Positions 18,049-25,246 of a stretch of 35,050 bases of DNA are shown here, one piece after another; the first letter of the stretch is position 1, and every line of letters starts with the position of its first letter. Below the pieces are notes generated by a model. The model was not told where the DNA came from. It was given only the letters and a program-made list of their open reading frames with translations, and did no database searches. The DNA lies in assembly GCA_013388855.1 (NCBI GenBank), contig JACAEM010000030.1:1-35050 (forward strand). Reading direction: 5' to 3'. The position numbers were made by a program, and so were the translations under genes. The stretch is from Chloroflexota bacterium (GTDB lineage: Bacteria; Chloroflexota; Anaerolineae; Anaerolineales; Villigracilaceae).

Positions 18049-18804
18049 TCACAATCTTACAGGTATTCCCTGATCCTTCAGTTCCCGCTTCAATTCTGGA
18101 ATCCTCAACTTCCCATCATGAAACAGCGACGCCGCTAATGCCGCATCTGCCATACCCTTCATGAGCACATTCGCAAAGTGACTTGGCATCCCCGCTCCGC
18201 CTGAAGCAATGACAGGCACAGACACCATATTCGAGATGATGCTTGTCAGTTCCAAGTCATAACCTGCGAGTGTGCCATCAGCGTCCATGCTGGTAAGCAA
18301 GATTTCGCCCGCCCCCAACTCCACACCGCGTACTGCCCACTCGACCGCGTCCATGCCTGTGGGAGTACGTCCACCTGCCACGTACACCTCCCAACTTGAG
18401 CCGTTTCTGCGTGCATCAATCGCCAGCACAATGCACTGCGCCCCAAAACGACTCGCGCCCTCGGAAAGCAACTCAGGTCTCTTCACCGCCGCCGAGTTGA
18501 CACTGACCTTGTCCGCGCCAGCCAGCAGCAGATTCCGCATGTCGTCTACTTCGCGGATTCCGCCGCCAACTGTCAGCGGCATGAAGACAGTCTCTGCCAC
18601 GCGGCTCACCAACTCCAAGGTGGTCTTGCGTCCTTCGTGAGTGGCGGAGATATCGAGAAAGACCAACTCGTCCGCGCCTTGTTCATCGTATAGACGTGCC
18701 TGCTCCACAGGGTCGCCCGCATCGCGCAGGTTCACAAAGTTCACGCCCTTCACCACACGCCCATCTTTGATATCCAAACAAGGGATGATTCGTTTTGCTA
18801 ACAT
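18049..18804 (-). CDS. hisF: imidazole glycerol phosphate synthase, cyclase subunit
   Basis: A 251-aa TIM barrel. [18 protein letters not shown] holds the first catalytic Asp (residue 11) and [14 protein letters not shown] the second; phosphate loops are VGGGIRE and ASGGAG. It works with HisH, using ammonia to form IGP and AICAR. Confidence 0.98.
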
Positions 18805-18819
18805 AAAACTCCTATCGTT

Positions 18820-18893
18820 TGAAAGTTGGCAAGTTGAAAAGTTTTCAAGTTAAGAGCATAACCTTCCAACTTTTGAACCTTCAAACCTGTAAC
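18820..18893. repeat. octamer-type inverted intergenic repeat (hisA-hisF gap)
   Basis: Eight-bp units GAAAGTTG, GCAAGTTG, AAAAGTTT, TCAAGTTA lead to a short core and then TTCCAACT, TTTGAACC, TTCAAACC on the other arm. The last units reach into the 3' end of hisA. Confidence 0.6.
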
Positions 18894-19594
18894 GCCTTTC
18901 CTAAATCAACCGTCCCATCATACAACGCCCGCCCGATGATACAACCCGCCAGCCTCGCATCCTTTGCCGCTTTTACATCATCGATCGTATGCACGCCGCC
19001 TGAAGCGATCACATCAAGTCCGCTCTTCTCGGATAACTCTCGTGTCGCAGGGATGTTCAACCCGCTGCCCAAACCGTCGCGGCTGACATCAGTAAAGATA
19101 ACGGTAGCAAGCCCAAAGTCCCGCATTTGAAGCGCGAGATCAAGCGCAGGCACGCCGCTGTTATCCTTCCAACCGCGAGTCCGGACGAGACCATCCCGCG
19201 CATCGATACCAACTGCAATACGCTCCGCGCCAAAACGACTCAACGCATCGCGCACGATGTCAGGTTGTTCAATCGCAATCGTCCCTAAAATCACGCGGCT
19301 CACACCCAACGACAACGCCGCCTCAATCGACTCCAGCGAACGCATCCCGCCGCCGAACTGCACGCGCACACCAAGTTTCAAAATCGGCTCAAGCGCATCA
19401 CGATTCGCACTGTCGCTTTCACCGAACGCGCCATCGAGATTCACCACATGCAACCAAGCCGCGCCAGCGTCGATCCAACGCTTCGCCGTCTCGGCGGGGT
19501 CGTCGCTATAGGAAGTCATTCGCGCGGGGTCGCCCTCTTTCAAGCGCACCACTTTGCCGCCGCGCAGATCGATCGCGGGATAGATCGTAAACAT
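18881..19594 (-). CDS. hisA: ProFAR isomerase
   Basis: A 237-aa TIM barrel from the ATG at 19594, which shares one base with the hisH stop (TGATG). FTIYPAIDLRGGKVVRLKEGD carries the first catalytic Asp, VIFTDVSRDG the second, with phosphate loops FGGGMRS and ASGGVHT. It performs the Amadori rearrangement of ProFAR to PRFAR, step 4. Confidence 0.97.
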   Translation of the reverse strand: MFTIYPAIDLRGGKVVRLKEGDPARMTSYSDDPAETAKRWIDAGAAWLHVVNLDGAFGESDSANRDALEPILKLGVRVQFGGGMRSLESIEAALSLGVSRVILGTIAIEQPDIVRDALSRFGAERIAVGIDARDGLVRTRGWKDNSGVPALDLALQMRDFGLATVIFTDVSRDGLGSGLNIPATRELSEKSGLDVIASGGVHTIDDVKAAKDARLAGCIIGRALYDGTVDLGKALQV

Positions 19595-20205
19595 CACGCC
19601 TCCACAAAATTTTTCAAAATGCGCAGCCCCACCGCCTGACTTTTCTCAGGATGAAACTGCACGCCAAACACATTCTCGCGCCGTACCGCGCACGCATAGC
19701 GAATGCCGTAATCCACTTCCGCGATCACATCCGATGGATCGCCCGCCTGACAATAATACGAGTGATTGAAATAGACATACGCCCCATCTTGGATTTGATC
19801 GAAGAGCGCCGCCTCTTTCTTGACCTGAACCTGATTCCACCCCGTGTGCGGAATCTTCACCGACAGCGTATCTGCAAACTTCACCACCGTGCCGCGCAGC
19901 AGACCCAAGCCTTCGTGCTCGCCCATCTCTTCGCCAATCTCGAACAAGGCTTGCATCCCAACGCAAATTCCCAGCATCGGCACGCCTCGCGAAACGACTT
20001 GCTTCACGGCGTCGTCGAGTCCTTTGGCTTTCATGCCATCCATAAAATCACCGAACGCGCCCACGCCAGGTAGCACAACCTTCTTTGTTGCTAAAACTTT
20101 CTGCGGGTCATCAGTTCGTTCCACACTCGCACCAACATTCTCCAGCGCCTTCTGCACCGAACGGAGGTTGCCTGTGCCCGCATCAATCAATATGATTTCG
20201 TTCAT
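19594..20205 (-). CDS. hisH: imidazole glycerol phosphate synthase, glutaminase subunit
   Basis: A 203-aa class I glutamine amidotransferase. Nucleophile Cys81 in MLGICVGMQALFE, and His185/Glu187 in VQFHPEKS complete the triad. DAGTGNLRSV is the usual N-terminus. It feeds ammonia to HisF. Confidence 0.98.
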   Translation of the reverse strand: MNEIILIDAGTGNLRSVQKALENVGASVERTDDPQKVLATKKVVLPGVGAFGDFMDGMKAKGLDDAVKQVVSRGVPMLGICVGMQALFEIGEEMGEHEGLGLLRGTVVKFADTLSVKIPHTGWNQVQVKKEAALFDQIQDGAYVYFNHSYYCQAGDPSDVIAEVDYGIRYACAVRRENVFGVQFHPEKSQAVGLRILKNFVEA

Positions 20206-20225
20206 ACGTTCTCCATTTCAACAAT

Positions 20226-20285
20226 GACCGCAGACCGCGGACGATAGACCGTTTGCTTTCAGTCGGCGGTCGGTCGTCTGCGGTC
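20226..20285. repeat. inverted repeat in the hisB-hisH gap
   Basis: GACCGCAGAC (20226-20235) is repeated in inverted form as GTCTGCGGTC (20276-20285), with further GACCG/CGGTC segments between. It is a different family from the octamer repeats. It ends 3 nt before the hisB stop codon. Confidence 0.6.
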
Positions 20286-20288
20286 AAA

Positions 20289-20876
20289 TCAAAGTGTCCC
20301 CTTCGTAGACGGTATCGCCCCGCCCCGCCGCGCATCAAACTGCGTAGACGCATCCAACGCGCGCGCCCAGGCTTTGAACAACGCTTCGGCTTGATGATGG
20401 TCATCGCGCCCGTATAAGACTCGTGCATGGAGATTACAGCGTGCCTGCACCGCAAACGACTCAAAGAAATGCGGAAACAACGTCGCAGGGATGTTGCCAA
20501 CATACGGCGTGTGCCATTCGACCTGCACGACTGCATACGGACGCCCCGACAAGTCCATTGCCACATGCGCGAGGGTCTCATCCATCGGCGCGAAACTATC
20601 ACCCATGCGGGCAATTCCCTTGCGGTCGCCTAACGCCTTATCAAAGGCTTGCCCCAACGCCAGCGCCACATCCTCCACCGTGTGATGGACATCAATATGC
20701 AGATCACCTTGCGCTTTGACGTTCAGGTCAAAGAGTCCGTGAACGGCGAGGTGGGTCAGCATGTGGTCGAGGAATCCCACGCCCGTGGAAATCTCATGCT
20801 TGCCTGTGCCATCCAGATTCAATTTAATTTCGATCTGTGTTTCGTTTGTTTTTCTTGAAACTTCACCAAGTCTCAT
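20289..20876 (-). CDS. hisB: imidazoleglycerol-phosphate dehydratase
   Basis: A 195-aa monofunctional dehydratase. The two-fold repeated metal motifs are visible: [34 protein letters not shown], and later [16 protein letters not shown]. No phosphatase domain is present, so histidinol-phosphate phosphatase must be elsewhere. It removes water from IGP, step 6. Confidence 0.97.
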
Positions 20877-20888
20877 AACATCTCCTTT

Positions 20889-20985
20889 GTTTACAAGTTA
20901 GCAGGTTTACAGGTTTGAACCCTTCGACACGCTCAGGACAGGCGTTCCAACTTGTAAACTTTCCAACTTTCCTGCCTTTACAACT
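20889..20985. repeat. octamer-type inverted intergenic repeat (hisC-hisB gap)
   Basis: Left arm GTTTACAA, GTTAGCAG, GTTTACAG, GTTTGAAC; core CCTTCGACACGCTCAGGACAGG (split in two words here by its inverted halves); right arm TTCCAACT, TGTAAACT, TTCCAACT, TTCCTGCC. The core is the inverse complement of the core at about 17670-17690. Confidence 0.6.
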
Positions 20986-22069
20986 TTTTCAACGCGCTTA
21001 TCAAAACATCTGTATCACTCGGTCTTCCCACACTAATACGAATATGATCTCTCAACCCAGGCTTGTTGAAGTAGCGGATAAAAACACCAAACTCCTGCGC
21101 CAATCTGGCTTTCAACTCGGCGGCGTCACGTCCGTCCACTTGGCAGAGGATGAAGTTCGATTGCGTAGGATACGGCTTGAGGTACGGAATCTCCGTCAGC
21201 GCGGAGAGGAGGCGGGTTCGTTCATCCTTGAGTTTTTCGAGCAATACTTTCAACTCATTCACATTGGCAAGTGACGCTTGCGCGGCAACACTCGCGGCGA
21301 CGTTGACATTGTACGGCTGTTTGGACTTCCACAAGGTGGGCATGAGCCACTTGGGGAACGCACCGTAGCCAATGCGTAGCCCTGCCAGCCCCGCCCATTT
21401 GCTAAACGTGCGCAACACGATAAGATTCTCCCGTTGCGGCACTTCGCGGATTCGGCTGAGGCTTGCGCCGAGATTCTCACCCGCAAATTCAATGTAGGCT
21501 TCATCAAGCACCACCAATAGCGGAAGGGTGAGCAATTCATCCATCACATCCGATGGGATCAACGAACCGTCGGGGTTGTTGGGCGAAGCGATGAAAAGCA
21601 TTTTCGGCTTGTGTTCATCAACTGCTTTTCGTATGCCGTCCATGTTCAAAGAGAAGTCCGCATTGCGCGGCACTTCGATACAACACGCGGCATTCAACTC
21701 CGCGTCGAAGGGATACATGCCGAAGGTCGGCGGGCAGGAGAGAATGCACTCGTTCGGCTCAAGGAAGACGCGCATGAGCAGGTCGAGCAGTTCATCCGCG
21801 CCAGAGCCAGCAAGCAGATAGTCTTCGTCCACGCCTGTGAACTGTGCCAGCGACTGGCGCAAGGCACGCGACTCAGGGTCGGGGTAGATGTGCGGAAAGT
21901 CCATCTCGGCGAGCGCCTTGCGGACAGCGGGCAGAATGCCATAGGGATTTTCGTTCGCGTCGAGTTTGACGATCTGCGACGGCTCACGCCCGATACGAGC
22001 GGAGAGAACTTCGAAGGGTTCGATGGGGGTGTAAGGAGGAAGGGATTCGAGGTGGGTTCGGATTTGCAT
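20978..22069 (-). CDS. hisC: histidinol-phosphate aminotransferase
   Basis: A 363-aa fold-type I PLP enzyme. IVKLDANENPYG is the HisC N-terminal signature, LVVLDEAYIEFAG the Asp/Tyr that bind PLP, and LRTFSKWAGLAGLRIGYG holds the Schiff-base Lys. It transfers the amino group to imidazole acetol phosphate, step 7. Confidence 0.96.
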   Translation of the reverse strand: MQIRTHLESLPPYTPIEPFEVLSARIGREPSQIVKLDANENPYGILPAVRKALAEMDFPHIYPDPESRALRQSLAQFTGVDEDYLLAGSGADELLDLLMRVFLEPNECILSCPPTFGMYPFDAELNAACCIEVPRNADFSLNMDGIRKAVDEHKPKMLFIASPNNPDGSLIPSDVMDELLTLPLLVVLDEAYIEFAGENLGASLSRIREVPQRENLIVLRTFSKWAGLAGLRIGYGAFPKWLMPTLWKSKQPYNVNVAASVAAQASLANVNELKVLLEKLKDERTRLLSALTEIPYLKPYPTQSNFILCQVDGRDAAELKARLAQEFGVFIRYFNKPGLRDHIRISVGRPSDTDVLISALKKL

Positions 22070-22082
22070 AATGATTCCTTTG

Positions 22083-22165
22083 GGATGTCATCCTGAGCGA
22101 TAGCGAAGGATCTCTACGCCAATTACCAGAGACTCTTCGGTCACTGCCGCTCCCTCAGAGTGACA
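22083..22165. repeat. dispersed GTCATCCTGAGC-type repeat (hisD-hisC gap)
   Basis: ATGTCATCCTGAGCGATAGCG at about 22086, cut here to its family core GTCATCCTGAGCG, is followed by GAAGGATCTC and an imperfect inverted arm GAGACTCTTCGG...CTCAGAGTGACA. This is a common bacterial intergenic palindrome; its end reaches into the hisD stop region. Confidence 0.65.
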
Positions 22166-23498
22166 TATCACTCCGCAACAAAGCGGCATTCGCGTGTGCG
22201 TCCAAGCCTTCAGACTGTGCAAGAGTTGCAGCGACAGGACCAACAGCTTGTGCGGTCTTGTCATCCAACGCGACGAGGCTGACGATCTTCACAAAGTCCC
22301 ACACGTTGAGTGGGGAAGCAAAGCGGGCGGATCCGCCTGTAGGCATGACGTGGCTGGGGCCTGCGAGATAGTCGCCGAGCACTTCAAAGGAATGTTCGCC
22401 CATAAAGACGCCGCCCGCGTTATTGACTTTCTCTGCCCAGCGCCACGGTTCCGTGACGGATAATGCCAAGTGTTCGGGCGCGTACTCGTTGGCGAGGTCA
22501 ACGGCTTCGGCGAGGTCGCGGGTGAGGACGGCGCCGCCGCGATTTTCTAATGAAGCGACGATGATATCTGCGCGGCTGCGTTGTTCGATCTGATTCGCAA
22601 CTTCGGCTTGAACTTTTTGAATGAGGGTTTGCGATGGAGTGAGAAGAATGGCAGAGGCAAGCAAATCATGTTCGGCTTGGGCGAGTAAGTCCGCCGCGAC
22701 CCAACTGGGATTTGCCGAGTCGTCTGCGATGACGACTGTTTCAGTGGGACCCGCCAGCCCGTCAATGCCGACCACGCCGTAGACTTGTCGCTTTGCTAAT
22801 GTGACGAAGAGATTGCCGGGTCCAAAAATTTTGTCAACAGGGCGGATGGTTTCGGTGCCATACGCGAGCGCAGCAATGGCTTGTGCGCCGCCAATGGCAT
22901 AGACTTCGTCCACGCCTGCGACGGCGCAGGCAGCAAGAATAATTGGATTGATGGGCGTTTCGGCATTTGCAAAGTCACGGTTGGGCGGCGTAATGATGAC
23001 GATCTCTTTCACACCTGCCACCTTTGCAGGGATGGCACTCATCAACACTGTTGATGGCAATGGAGCCGTGCCGCCTGGGACGTACAAGCCGACGCGTTGA
23101 ATCGGGCGGATGATCTGCCCGACGGTGCCGCCGAGTTCGTTGGTGAACCATGAGGTCAGCGGTTGTTTTTTGTGAAAGGCTTCGACGCGGGCGGCGGCTT
23201 TTTCGAGCGCGTCACGTTGCACAGGCGAGATCGAATCAAGCGCGGACTGAATCAAAGCCGTCGAAACGGGAGCAGGTTTGAAATTAAGAGAATCGAGGCG
23301 TTGTGTCCAATCTTGAAGGGAGGAGTCGCCGCGAGTCCGCACGTCTTTCAAGATGCGCGTCACGGCTTGTTCGGCGGTCAGGCGTTCGCCAAACAATTTT
23401 TCGATATTGTCCATCACACGCGTGCTGACGGGAAATTCATCGGGTGGGGTGCGTTTGAGAATGGTTTGGCGTGCGGTTTGCGGGTCGTATTGTTTCAT
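22155..23498 (-). CDS. hisD: histidinol dehydrogenase
   Basis: A 447-aa enzyme from the ATG at 23498 (GGAATTG upstream is weak; the frame to 23540 runs through a repeat). RVGLYVPGGTAPLPSTVLM, EVYAIGGAQAIAALAYGT, DGLAGPTETVVIAD and LAGPSHVMPTGGSAR are HisD hallmarks. It oxidises histidinol to histidine in two NAD-dependent steps, with zinc. Confidence 0.97.
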   Translation of the reverse strand: MKQYDPQTARQTILKRTPPDEFPVSTRVMDNIEKLFGERLTAEQAVTRILKDVRTRGDSSLQDWTQRLDSLNFKPAPVSTALIQSALDSISPVQRDALEKAAARVEAFHKKQPLTSWFTNELGGTVGQIIRPIQRVGLYVPGGTAPLPSTVLMSAIPAKVAGVKEIVIITPPNRDFANAETPINPIILAACAVAGVDEVYAIGGAQAIAALAYGTETIRPVDKIFGPGNLFVTLAKRQVYGVVGIDGLAGPTETVVIADDSANPSWVAADLLAQAEHDLLASAILLTPSQTLIQKVQAEVANQIEQRSRADIIVASLENRGGAVLTRDLAEAVDLANEYAPEHLALSVTEPWRWAEKVNNAGGVFMGEHSFEVLGDYLAGPSHVMPTGGSARFASPLNVWDFVKIVSLVALDDKTAQAVGPVAATLAQSEGLDAHANAALLRSDMSL

Positions 23499-23507
23499 GG
23501 TCAATTC

Positions 23508-23583
23508 CTTTTCTAAACACAAAGGGCACGAAGTACACAAAGGTTTTAAGGCTTCTCCTTAGTGCCCTTTGTGTCCTTCGTGT
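23508..23583. repeat. inverted repeat in the hisG-hisD gap
   Basis: AAACACAAAGGGCACGAAG on one side faces CCTTTGTGTCCTTCGTGTTT on the other, an imperfect palindrome filling the gap. It is yet another dispersed repeat family. Confidence 0.6.
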
Positions 23584-24585
23584 TTAATATTTTTTCAGCG
23601 TCGCGAGCATGGCGGTATAGCGCGGCGGTTCTTCTTCAAAGATGTAAGTGACGGGCGAGACGACAATGCCACTACCGCCAACGCTGCGAAGTTCGCTGAT
23701 GGCTTGCGGAAGGTGATCGCGACGCACGACGACGGTGACAGAGTGCCAGTCTTGATTCGATTCGCGCGTGATGATGGGGCTGATGGTGGGACCTTGCAGA
23801 CCGCCAACAGATGTTTCATTGAAGAGTTTGGACGCAATCGCTTCGGGACTCCGCCCGCGCATGTTCGCAATGACCAGAAGATTTTCCTTCGCCCGCATGT
23901 GCGCCTCGATGTACTCGAGCAAGCGACGCGCCATTTCCAGCGCCTGTGGATTCGTTTGCAAGGCTTTGCGATTTGCGATGAGCGCGGCTTGTGAAGCTTG
24001 GATGACACCATCGCGTAGCGCTCGCAAGCGATTGTCTTGCAGGGTTTGACCCGATGAAACCAGATCAGAGATGATGTCGGCATAGCCGATGGTAGGCGCG
24101 GTTTCGAGCGTGCCTTCGGCGGTGATGAGCGTGTGGGGAATGTTCTGTGCCTTGAGAAAGCGTTCAGTGAGGACGGGGAATTTGGTCGCCACTCGCAGCG
24201 GACGGTTGAGACTCGCCACATATTTTTTCAGCGAGGAAATGTCGGTGACGTCCGCCCATGCTTCGGGGACGGCTAGCATGAGCGCACAACCACCATAACC
24301 GAGTTCGTCATGCAGGACAATAATCTCGCCGTTGTCGCCGCGATTTTCTTCGATCACGTCGATGCCGGTAATGCCAAAGTCCACGCTGCCCTGGCGGACA
24401 CTGACCACAATGTCACCTGGGCGTTGAAAGAGGACGGTCAACTCAGGTAGGGCGGACATCTTCGCCTGATACTGGCGCGGATTAAGTTTCTGCACGGAGA
24501 GTCCGCACTCGGCAAGGAAGTCGAGCGTGTCGTCCATGAGGCGTCCTTTGGAGGGGAGGGAGAGACGGAGGGTGGGTTGGGTCAT
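23584..24585 (-). CDS. hisG: ATP phosphoribosyltransferase, long form
   Basis: A 333-aa HisG of the long type with a C-terminal ACT-like regulatory domain, so no HisZ is needed. LRLSLPSKGRLMDDTLDFL is the N-terminal signature; VDFGITGIDVIEEN and VATKFPVLTERFL are typical, as is the segment TAPTIGYADIISDLVSSG with the PRPP loop. It is step 1 and the feedback-inhibited point of the pathway. It is the first structural gene after the attenuator. Confidence 0.96.
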   Translation of the reverse strand: MTQPTLRLSLPSKGRLMDDTLDFLAECGLSVQKLNPRQYQAKMSALPELTVLFQRPGDIVVSVRQGSVDFGITGIDVIEENRGDNGEIIVLHDELGYGGCALMLAVPEAWADVTDISSLKKYVASLNRPLRVATKFPVLTERFLKAQNIPHTLITAEGTLETAPTIGYADIISDLVSSGQTLQDNRLRALRDGVIQASQAALIANRKALQTNPQALEMARRLLEYIEAHMRAKENLLVIANMRGRSPEAIASKLFNETSVGGLQGPTISPIITRESNQDWHSVTVVVRRDHLPQAISELRSVGGSGIVVSPVTYIFEEEPPRYTAMLATLKKY

Positions 24586-24615
24586 AGAGTTTCCTTACTA
24601 ATTCTGTATTTAGTA

Positions 24616-24690
24616 GTTACCCCTTCCGCCTGCTTCGCAGGCACCTCCCCCAAATTACAAAATTTGAATTTGGGGGAGGCCAGGTGGGGG
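24616..24690. repeat. GC-rich dispersed hairpin repeat upstream of hisG
   Basis: CCTCCCCCAAATT (24644-24656) and AATTTGGGGGAGG (24667-24679) form a 13-bp stem; GCCTGC/GCAGGC near 24628-24642 forms a second. It lies between the attenuator terminator and hisG in the his leader transcript. Confidence 0.7.
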
Positions 24691-24699
24691 TAAACAAAA

Positions 24700-24724
24700 A
24701 AGCCCCGACGCAGGGTCGGGGCTT
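24700..24724 (-). terminator. his attenuator terminator
   Basis: On the minus strand AAGCCCCGAC and GTCGGGGCTT form a 10-bp stem with a 5-nt loop, followed by a run of six T. It lies between the leader peptide and hisG, so it must be bypassed for the operon to be expressed. Confidence 0.92.
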
Positions 24725-24833
24725 GATGAGGTGAAGTATGGGTATCTGCTATCCGTTCACAGGTACGCGCACATAAACCTCCCGACCATGCGGGGGGTGA
24801 ATGTGATGATGGTGGTGCTTGAGCGCGTACCTG
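24714..24833 (-). promoter_or_regulatory. his operon attenuator, alternative RNA hairpins
   Basis: Segment A (CAGGTACGCGC, complement of 24823-24833) can pair over 11 bp with segment B (GCGCGTACCTG, complement of 24760-24770), enclosing the His codons. Segment X (GGTCGGG, 24787-24781) can pair over 7 bp with CCCGACC at 24720-24714, which is the 5' arm of the terminator. A ribosome stalled at the His codons would cover A, free X, and so block the terminator; without stalling the terminator forms. The pairings are seen; the mechanism is inferred from known his attenuators. Confidence 0.8.
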
Positions 24834-24841
24834 CTGTTCAT
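24749..24841 (-). CDS. hisL: his leader peptide
   Basis: A 30-codon ORF on the minus strand, ATG at 24841 and TAG at 24751-24749. Codons 8-18 read KHHHHHIHPPH: seven His codons in ten positions. This, the downstream terminator and the position ahead of hisG identify it as the ribosome-stalling leader peptide of a histidine attenuator. It has no Shine-Dalgarno sequence, and the promoter predicts a start only about 4 nt before the ATG, so it may be translated from a near-leaderless RNA. Confidence 0.9.
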   Translation of the reverse strand: MNSRYALKHHHHHIHPPHGREVYVRVPVNG

Positions 24842-24851
24842 ATTGAGCGGC

Positions 24852-24880
24852 AGTATATCAAGTTCATCTATTTTTGACAA
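24852..24880 (-). promoter_or_regulatory. promoter of the his operon
   Basis: On the minus strand TTGTCA (24875-24880) and TATACT (24852-24857) are 17 nt apart. The predicted transcription start is about 24845. Confidence 0.8.
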
Positions 24881-24908
24881 GCCTGTAATTTCTCGCCGAA
24901 CAGACTTG

Positions 24909-24917
24909 TGTTAAAAT
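24909..24917 (+). promoter_or_regulatory. extended -10 element before tRNA-Arg
   Basis: TGTTAAAAT gives a TGn extension and TAAAAT, 25 nt before the mature tRNA. No good -35 lies at the right distance (TTTCTC at 24889-24894). It is back to back with the his promoter. Confidence 0.45.
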
Positions 24918-24942
24918 ACCTGCATAGTTTGTAAAGCAGATT

Positions 24943-25015
24943 GCCCCCGTAGCTCAATGGACAGAGTAACAGACTTCGAATCTGGTGGTTGCGCGTTCGA
25001 GCCGCGCCGGGGGCG
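24943..25015 (+). tRNA. tRNA-Arg, anticodon TCG
   Basis: A 73-nt cloverleaf: acceptor GCCCCCG (24943-24949) pairs with CGGGGGC (25008-25014), discriminator G. The anticodon loop CTTCGAA closed by AGA/TCT places TCG at the anticodon; GCGCGTTCGAGCCGCGC is the T arm. CCA is not encoded. Confidence 0.96.
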
Positions 25016-25021
25016 CCTCGT

Positions 25022-25246
25022 ATGCCCGATACACAGCCCGACCTGCAACTGATCCGAATCTTGACCGAACGGCTGGAACGTATCTCCGCCGATTCGGTCT
25101 GGGCGCATAGAGCCAGTGGTGTAAGAGGCAACCTTCTCCATATGTTGGATCAGTTTCAAAATGGGGAATCGCCCGATCAAAGCTCCATCACCAGTATGGT
25201 TTCCATCGCTTTCAACATTTTGTCACATGCCGCGAAACGCGGTTAG
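25022..25246 (+). CDS. small hypothetical protein directly after tRNA-Arg
   Basis: A 74-aa ORF from the ATG at 25022, six bases after the tRNA. It is predicted mostly helical and soluble (LQLIRILTERLERISADSVW and RGNLLHMLDQFQNGE). I recognise no family. There is no ribosome site because the tRNA 3' end lies upstream; it might be expressed from the tRNA transcript after processing. Alternating charged and hydrophobic residues look like a real protein, but support is limited. Confidence 0.5.
   Translation: MPDTQPDLQLIRILTERLERISADSVWAHRASGVRGNLLHMLDQFQNGESPDQSSITSMVSIAFNILSHAAKRG

Follow-up and report, generated by a model that had tools for sequence, protein, structure and literature searches.

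A probable ribosome-mediated attenuator with a leaderless leader peptide ahead of the histidine operon of Anaerolineales

Introduction

In an uncultured Chloroflexota bacterium, the histidine biosynthetic operon hisGDCBHAF is preceded by what is very probably a ribosome-mediated transcription attenuator, the leader peptide of which would be translated from a leaderless transcript (5′ end of 2–4 nt). From promoter through terminator, the element spans positions 24880 to 24700 on the minus strand of the window, which here means the whole 35,050-nt stretch of DNA analysed (Table 1). An earlier reading of the same sequence, the original prediction, had proposed such an attenuator in a likely Chloroflexota genome. 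The attenuator reading is supported at the sequence level by the his operon, the pairings, the terminator, the retained His codons and the covariation of one helix. The phylum guess also holds, because the closest named relatives of HisG (identity up to 95%) belong to Anaerolineales, Anaerolineae or Chloroflexi MAGs.

Table 1. Features of the his leader and its operon (positions in the window)
Feature	Position	Strand	Basis
−35 hexamer TTGTCA	24875..24880	−	Promoter scan; place conserved among relatives
−10 hexamer TATACT, ending 10 nt upstream of the leader ATG	24852..24857	−	Promoter scan, relatives
Leader peptide ORF, 30 codons, MNSRYALKHHHHHIHPPHGREVYVRVPVNG, stop TAG, no Shine-Dalgarno core	24749..24841	−	Sequence, relatives
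Arm A of the A:B helix, starting 7 nt after the A of ATG	24820..24834	−	Folding, pairing search
Five consecutive His codons (codons 9–13)	24803..24817	−	Sequence
Two further His codons	24797–24799 and 24788–24790	−	Sequence
Small hairpin in the A:B loop, pairing part of X in the minimum-energy fold	24777..24798	−	Folding
Segment X (GGTCGGG), antiterminator 5′ arm, starting 15 nt beyond the five-His run	24781..24787	−	Pairing, covariation
Arm B of the A:B helix	24759..24773	−	Pairing search; RNA sequence kept in three reading frames among relatives
Segment C (CCCGACC), antiterminator 3′ arm, overlapping the terminator 5′ arm	24714..24720	−	Pairing, covariation
Intrinsic terminator AAGCCCCGAC-CCTGC-GTCGGGGCTT, then TTTTGTTT	24700..24724	−	Terminator scan, relatives
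Shine-Dalgarno-like AAGGA of hisG	24592..24596	−	Sequence; tested over relatives
hisG, ATP phosphoribosyltransferase, first gene of the operon	23584..24585	−	PF01634, TIGR00070
hisD, hisC, hisB, hisH, hisA, hisF	18049..23540	−	Downstream of hisG

The leader and its distribution

The leader ORF is short, rich in codons for the amino acid that the operon behind it makes, and kept among relatives. As first described, KHHHHHIHPPH occupies its codons 8–18, and codons 9–18 contain seven His. Between the ORF and hisG lies an intrinsic terminator with a 10-bp stem (24724–24715/24709–24700) followed by a T run, at which the scan returned two overlapping terminator-like matches (0.5 expected). The leader transcript folds more stably than dinucleotide shuffles of itself (z = −4.0; 0/200 as good). 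The spacing between terminator and hisG is 114 nt in the window, which exceeds that of most of 50 relatives, and the interval holds a palindromic element (24611–24692) with partial copies on contigs C32 and C4 that are 75–77% identical.

Conservation was assessed in two sets of loci. The first came from a search of 101 genomes, of which 55 had a match; the best 30 places were taken as loci and 25 loci from GTDB contigs were added. L038, L039 and L052, whose contigs match those of L002, L003 and L011 in length, were dropped as copies of them. L040 and L048, with 238 and 30 nt of upstream sequence, were dropped as too short, a leader being seen in neither. All 50 usable HisG loci of the order carried a His-rich leader ORF, and all 50 carried a terminator 19–47 nt past the leader stop codon. 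For the second set, 20 of the 28 remaining places were fetched; G069, G094 and a further six that were partial or paralogous stayed out. Of the 20 order loci fetched, 19, including L119 with its GTG start, passed an automatic test that asked for a terminator and 3 His within 8 codons; a reverse-strand control over 120 regions gave one hit. Loss of the His codons in close relatives, named at the outset as a result that would count against the attenuator, was thus not seen. The clustered His codons comprise 204 CAT and 96 CAC, and because both occur it is the residue rather than the letters that has been kept.

Two members of the order depart from the pattern. In L119 (G074) the leader begins with GTG (VAILVCKHHHRQCSTAPRI), which is odd for a leaderless start; such starts prefer AUG. 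L133 (G082) has hisG and a terminator-like hairpin upstream, and no His-rich ORF was found there, a possible loss or change of sensor. The 70 leaders measured below exclude these two and comprise the 50 of the first set, 18 further leaders of the order, and L147 and L149. The last two are the only His leaders found ahead of hisG among 20 chosen loci from elsewhere in the class. None was found ahead of hisG in 20 chosen phylum loci or in 30 top-scoring class loci; a GTG ORF far upstream in L115, one of 30 top-scoring phylum loci, was judged spurious. In these scans L092 and L102 come from class genomes, and only 49 nt were available at L096. Judged by searches anchored on hisG, the switch would be a trait of Anaerolineales and some neighbours; the scans cover the region ahead of hisG and would miss a leader placed before a different first his gene. 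A covariance model of the leader (R1), run over 201 genomes of the order, found one match in the genome of the window (E 6.6e-40) and matched 76 of the 201 at E ≤ 0.01. Because most of these matches are weak and unchecked, no distribution was drawn from them.

Within the genus of the window (G000–G017), matches to the HisD family occur in 5 of 18 genomes, one being a short piece with a stop codon, and matches to HisG in 4 of 18. Only some of these genomes appear in both sets, and the assemblies are incomplete. Histidine synthesis may be absent from many genomes of this genus.

Promoter and leaderless start

The promoter of the window, TTGTCA-17-TATACT, agrees with 10 of 12 consensus positions, has a spacer of 17 nt and is the sole promoter-like match in 24560–25060 (0.3 expected from shuffles). 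From the usual −10 spacing, the predicted +1 lies 2–4 nt before the leader ATG, in line with the 5′ end about 4 nt upstream that had been proposed; the −10 box thus places +1 at or near the AUG, as in a leaderless mRNA. A TANNNT box about 12 bp upstream of the start codon has been described as the mark of leaderless genes, which the accessible part of the same article reports in 4 of 12 Chloroflexi genomes (4.7% of genes; PMC3160421). Here the first T of the −10 box lies 16 bp before the leader ATG, as against about 12 bp in that text, and ‘5′ end of 2–4 nt’ is therefore the better wording.

The same geometry recurs among the relatives. In 68 of the 70 leaders the best promoter ends 6–11 nt upstream of the ATG (exactly 10 nt in 45); in the remaining two it lies 16 and 19 nt away. 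Where more than one in-frame ATG exists, as in 28 of the leaders, the start was picked by hand. The 42 leaders with a single possible ATG all show the 6–11 nt gap, 25 of them exactly 10 nt. Mechanical rules applied to all 70 leaders give this gap in 56 when the most upstream ATG is taken and in 60 when the most downstream is taken. Requiring in addition a promoter score of at least 9 of 12 leaves 59 of 70 leaders, compared with a mean of 0.3 and a maximum of 2 in shuffles.

Ribosome-binding sequences differ between the leader and the first gene. A Shine-Dalgarno (SD) core precedes the leader ATG in none of the 70 leaders (11-nt window; 1.6 expected), which is weak evidence on its own because the window is short; a window of −20 to −5, which overlaps the promoter, gives a 4-nt SD match in two. 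Ahead of hisG, tested at 49 of the first 50 loci (L005 omitted), an SD core stands within 45 nt of the start in 46 (16.5 expected), and in 37 of 49 when a narrow window is used. Given leaders that lack an SD core and a hisG that has one, a single his operon therefore seems to employ both kinds of initiation, leaderless for the leader and SD-led for hisG.

Transcription of the same attenuator could instead begin further upstream, giving the leader ORF a longer 5′ UTR without an SD, in which case the ORF would not be leaderless. Promoter matches do not prove use, +1 is only predicted, and the two leaders with gaps of 16 and 19 nt fit such an arrangement. Nevertheless, an upstream start appears unlikely: the distance from −10 box to ATG stays constant while the hexamers vary by subgroup (TTGCCA/TATACT versus TTGACT/TAGAAT), none of the 42 unambiguous leaders departs from the 6–11 nt gap, the SD core is missing from the leaders and present at hisG, and the 19-nt case (L124) has an in-frame ATG 12 nt upstream that brings the gap to 7 nt. 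Leaderless initiation, as originally proposed, is thus upheld by comparison (the promoter–ATG spacing and the missing SD in relatives), for a start site that is itself predicted.

Paired segments and the sensor

A terminator-controlled his leader might also be governed by a different sensor, such as a tRNA-binding T-box or a protein like HisR, the His-rich ORF being incidental. T-boxes or HisR do serve his genes in other bacteria, according to the accessible text of PMC9413887. At gathering score, Rfam found only two tRNAs in the whole window; no T-box was found in the window at that score, nor in 24500–25050 at E ≤ 10. The Rfam His leader is likewise absent from the two gathering-level matches and from the 18 matches at E ≤ 10 in 24500–25050. 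As candidates for a catalogued RNA, the 17 non-tRNA matches at E ≤ 10 in that interval, the rnk leader among them, were rejected, all being below threshold, and those other than the best are weak and far below it. The best, Plastid-ycf2 (E 0.0018), corresponds to the tRNA of that interval in reverse, and the Phe leader model is weak (15.3 bits against a threshold of 55, E 9). Moreover, a His run with mixed CAT and CAC codons that is kept across an order is hardly incidental, and control by a different sensor is very improbable.

The attenuator reading requires that the leader RNA can adopt exclusive structures, and the alternative pairings originally named, A:B and X:C, are both present in the sequence (X:C with 7 bp) along with the terminator. 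Against 60 shuffles, X:C reaches p ≤ 0.05 in 39 of the 70 leaders and A:B in 31. Covariation was sought in alignment A1, which holds 31 of the 70 leaders, all near relatives (L050 and L053 are misaligned at C); the leaders compared are kin and not independent sequences. For X:C, 94.9% of cells are paired and 23 are altered on both sides, compared with 10.5 in controls. Its covariation score of 0.278 (0.166 in controls) is reached by 0 of 500 shuffles, and all slid versions of the helix score lower. Neither the 2 double-changed pairs nor the 7 pair types exceed what shuffles give (408 and 500 of 500), and the signal is mainly one two-base switch common to a clade. X:C reads GGTCGGG/CCCGACC in 13 leaders and GACCGGG/CCCGGTC in 7, with rarer forms including GATCGGG/CCCGATC in one; GACCAGG/CCCGGTC, with one X:C mismatch, occurs in 3 of 31. 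The terminator covaries along with X:C (95.8% paired; both-side changes in 39 cells versus 13.1), and much of this is one between-clade split.

A:B fared differently in the same alignment, with 74.4% of cells paired versus 73.1%, 23 and 40 of 500 shuffles equal or higher, and a covariation score matched by one slid version. As an argument, its covariation was dropped as too weak. The covariation looked for in the relatives is therefore present for X:C and hardly above controls for A:B, so that A:B rests on its strong pairing in the window and on the conserved arm B. Across A1, arm B is read in three frames (23, 4 and 4 of 31 leaders) with its RNA sequence kept, and thus selection on the ORF tail would seem to act at the level of RNA, not peptide. 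For this reason, and because distant leaders have little in common besides the His run, it is most improbable of all that a nascent arrest peptide acts in place of His codons read through tRNA charging, even with the tail IQPPHGREVYVRVP almost fixed in the closest relatives.

The spacing of the elements also suits a ribosome stalled on His codons. In the leaders compared, X begins a median of 15 nt past the His run, just out of reach of a ribosome decoding it. In 45 of the 70 leaders the A:B helix begins within the opening 12 nt of the ORF, a figure that is suggestive because the search was restricted to the stretch before and into the His run.

Folding with a ribosome and the proposed switch

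A translating ribosome covers 28 nt of RNA. Folding was computed for the nascent RNA as far as the terminator loop, a footprint of this size being forced to stay unpaired. In the leader of the window, the computed X:C pairing is 0.00 without a ribosome; it rises to 0.94–0.95 whichever of the five His codons the ribosome occupies, and is 0.51 for a ribosome at the stop codon. Over the 70 leaders the means are 0.51, 0.76 (stalled on His) and 0.33, respectively. A stalled ribosome raises X:C by more than 0.1 in 30 leaders, lowers it in 2 and changes it by at most 0.1 in 38, and for this reason ‘off without translation’ is not general. These in silico results, in which a stalled ribosome frees an antiterminator exclusive with the terminator, suggest a direction of response that fits the classic attenuation model, with an untranslated state that would not be uniformly off. 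Because in the leader of the window a ribosome at the stop codon leaves X:C at 0.51, termination there at ample histidine must rely on release or on a moving ribosome.

We propose that a 70S ribosome would start at the AUG once the 5′ end emerges from RNA polymerase. When charged tRNA-His is scarce, the ribosome would halt on the His run and mask arm A together with the 5′ half of the small inner hairpin, leaving X free because X starts 15 nt past the run. While the terminator still lacked its 3′ arm, X could then pair with C, and RNA polymerase would continue into hisG. With plentiful histidine, the ribosome would cross X to the stop codon, or depart so that A:B and the inner hairpin re-form; C would then join its terminator partner and transcription would stop. 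If there is no translation at all, A:B would hide X in the leader of the window and the operon would be off.

Relation to known systems

In the enterobacterial his leader an SD leads the ORF, and the paired segments form a longer chain. The Chloroflexota leader differs in having no SD and three main helices, and it gives no match to the Rfam His leader up to E = 10. Both have a short His-run ORF before the his operon and mutually exclusive antiterminator and terminator (E. coli / Salmonella hisL, Rfam His leader; PMC3896937). Such systems had been regarded as classically proteobacterial; they are not confined to that phylum, since his attenuators, established in enteric bacteria, have also been proposed in several Firmicutes (Bacillus cereus group, Eubacteriales, Erysipelotrichales). 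These resemble the present leader in lying outside the Proteobacteria and in having three to five consecutive His codons with a terminator and an antiterminator, and the accessible text describing them makes no mention of leaderless initiation (PMC9413887).

Each part of the his leader is already known elsewhere. Canestrari et al. reportedly named mycobacterial polycysteine leaderless short ORFs as attenuators in 2020. In a further article such ORFs are named as translation attenuation of cysteine genes (PMC13236596); they are leaderless, as predicted for the leader here, and likewise carry a run of the sensed amino acid, whereas here transcription termination would be controlled. By description, a likeness in initiation is offered by the ilvBNC leader of Corynebacterium glutamicum, an actinobacterial system for branched-chain amino acids. 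According to PMC11857589 (citing Morbach et al., 2000), its transcription start and the leader start codon are one nucleotide apart, there is no ribosome binding site for the leader peptide, and shielding of the initiation site is ascribed to the first hairpin. In the C. glutamicum hisD leader, the available text of PMC3896937 reports that no ORF with several His codons was found. Our literature searches on attenuators and leader peptides in Chloroflexi, which covered few subscription papers, gave no account of this system among the matches listed. A survey by Lopatovskaya et al. from 2010 may cover part of this ground. The attenuator is well supported and, as far as the literature could be searched, new for its phylum.

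A second leader and wider meaning

A second leader of the leaderless type lies in the same genome before a homocitrate-synthase-like gene (L213:1264–1497; G000:C34, upstream of 67542). Its layout is TTGACA-16-TAGAAT-10-ATG, then a 41-codon ORF with a Lys-rich KSKRK, then a terminator, and by eye an antiterminator could form between GTTGTCGG and CCGACAAC of the terminator. The downstream gene scores 413.9 bits with TIGR02146 (cut-off 413.55); a 2-isopropylmalate synthase model scores higher, 510.3, yet under its 517 cut-off. Among five close homologues of this gene (73–84% identical), L224–L226 keep the ATG-hugging promoter and a Lys/Arg-rich run, and L223 and L227 keep this type of leader in part. 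We infer that L213 is likely a lysine attenuator of the same build. A leader-peptide lysine attenuator exists in Thermus.

Two scans for further leaders bear on how widely this build is used. A scan for trp, ilv and leu leaders in five genomes (11/11 PF00425, 6/11 PF02776 and 8/11 PF00682 loci) returned a single match, the lysine-type L213; it required an ATG-hugging promoter and a terminator, so that leaders with a conventional 5′ UTR or ahead of an upstream gene would be missed. The leaderless-promoter pattern, run over the genome of the window, gave 10 matches (one in a reversed-pattern control), of which by eye only the his leader resembles an attenuator leader. It missed L213, with its spacer of 16, because the spacer was fixed at 17.

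The presence of L213 beside the his leader suggests a general design and not a peculiarity of his. We tentatively suggest that leaderless initiation could quite possibly be the normal mode for ribosome-mediated attenuation in Anaerolineales: with the AUG at the end of the transcript, translation would begin as the RNA appears, and A:B would serve to disable the antiterminator and also to shut the leaderless start. The finding would extend ribosome-mediated his attenuation to a phylum for which no description was found among the matches listed. It also offers an order-wide natural experiment, in which dozens of leaders can be compared for promoter–AUG spacing, for the distance from His run to antiterminator and for antiterminator sequence, and it points to a testable connection of leaderless initiation with the timing required for attenuation.
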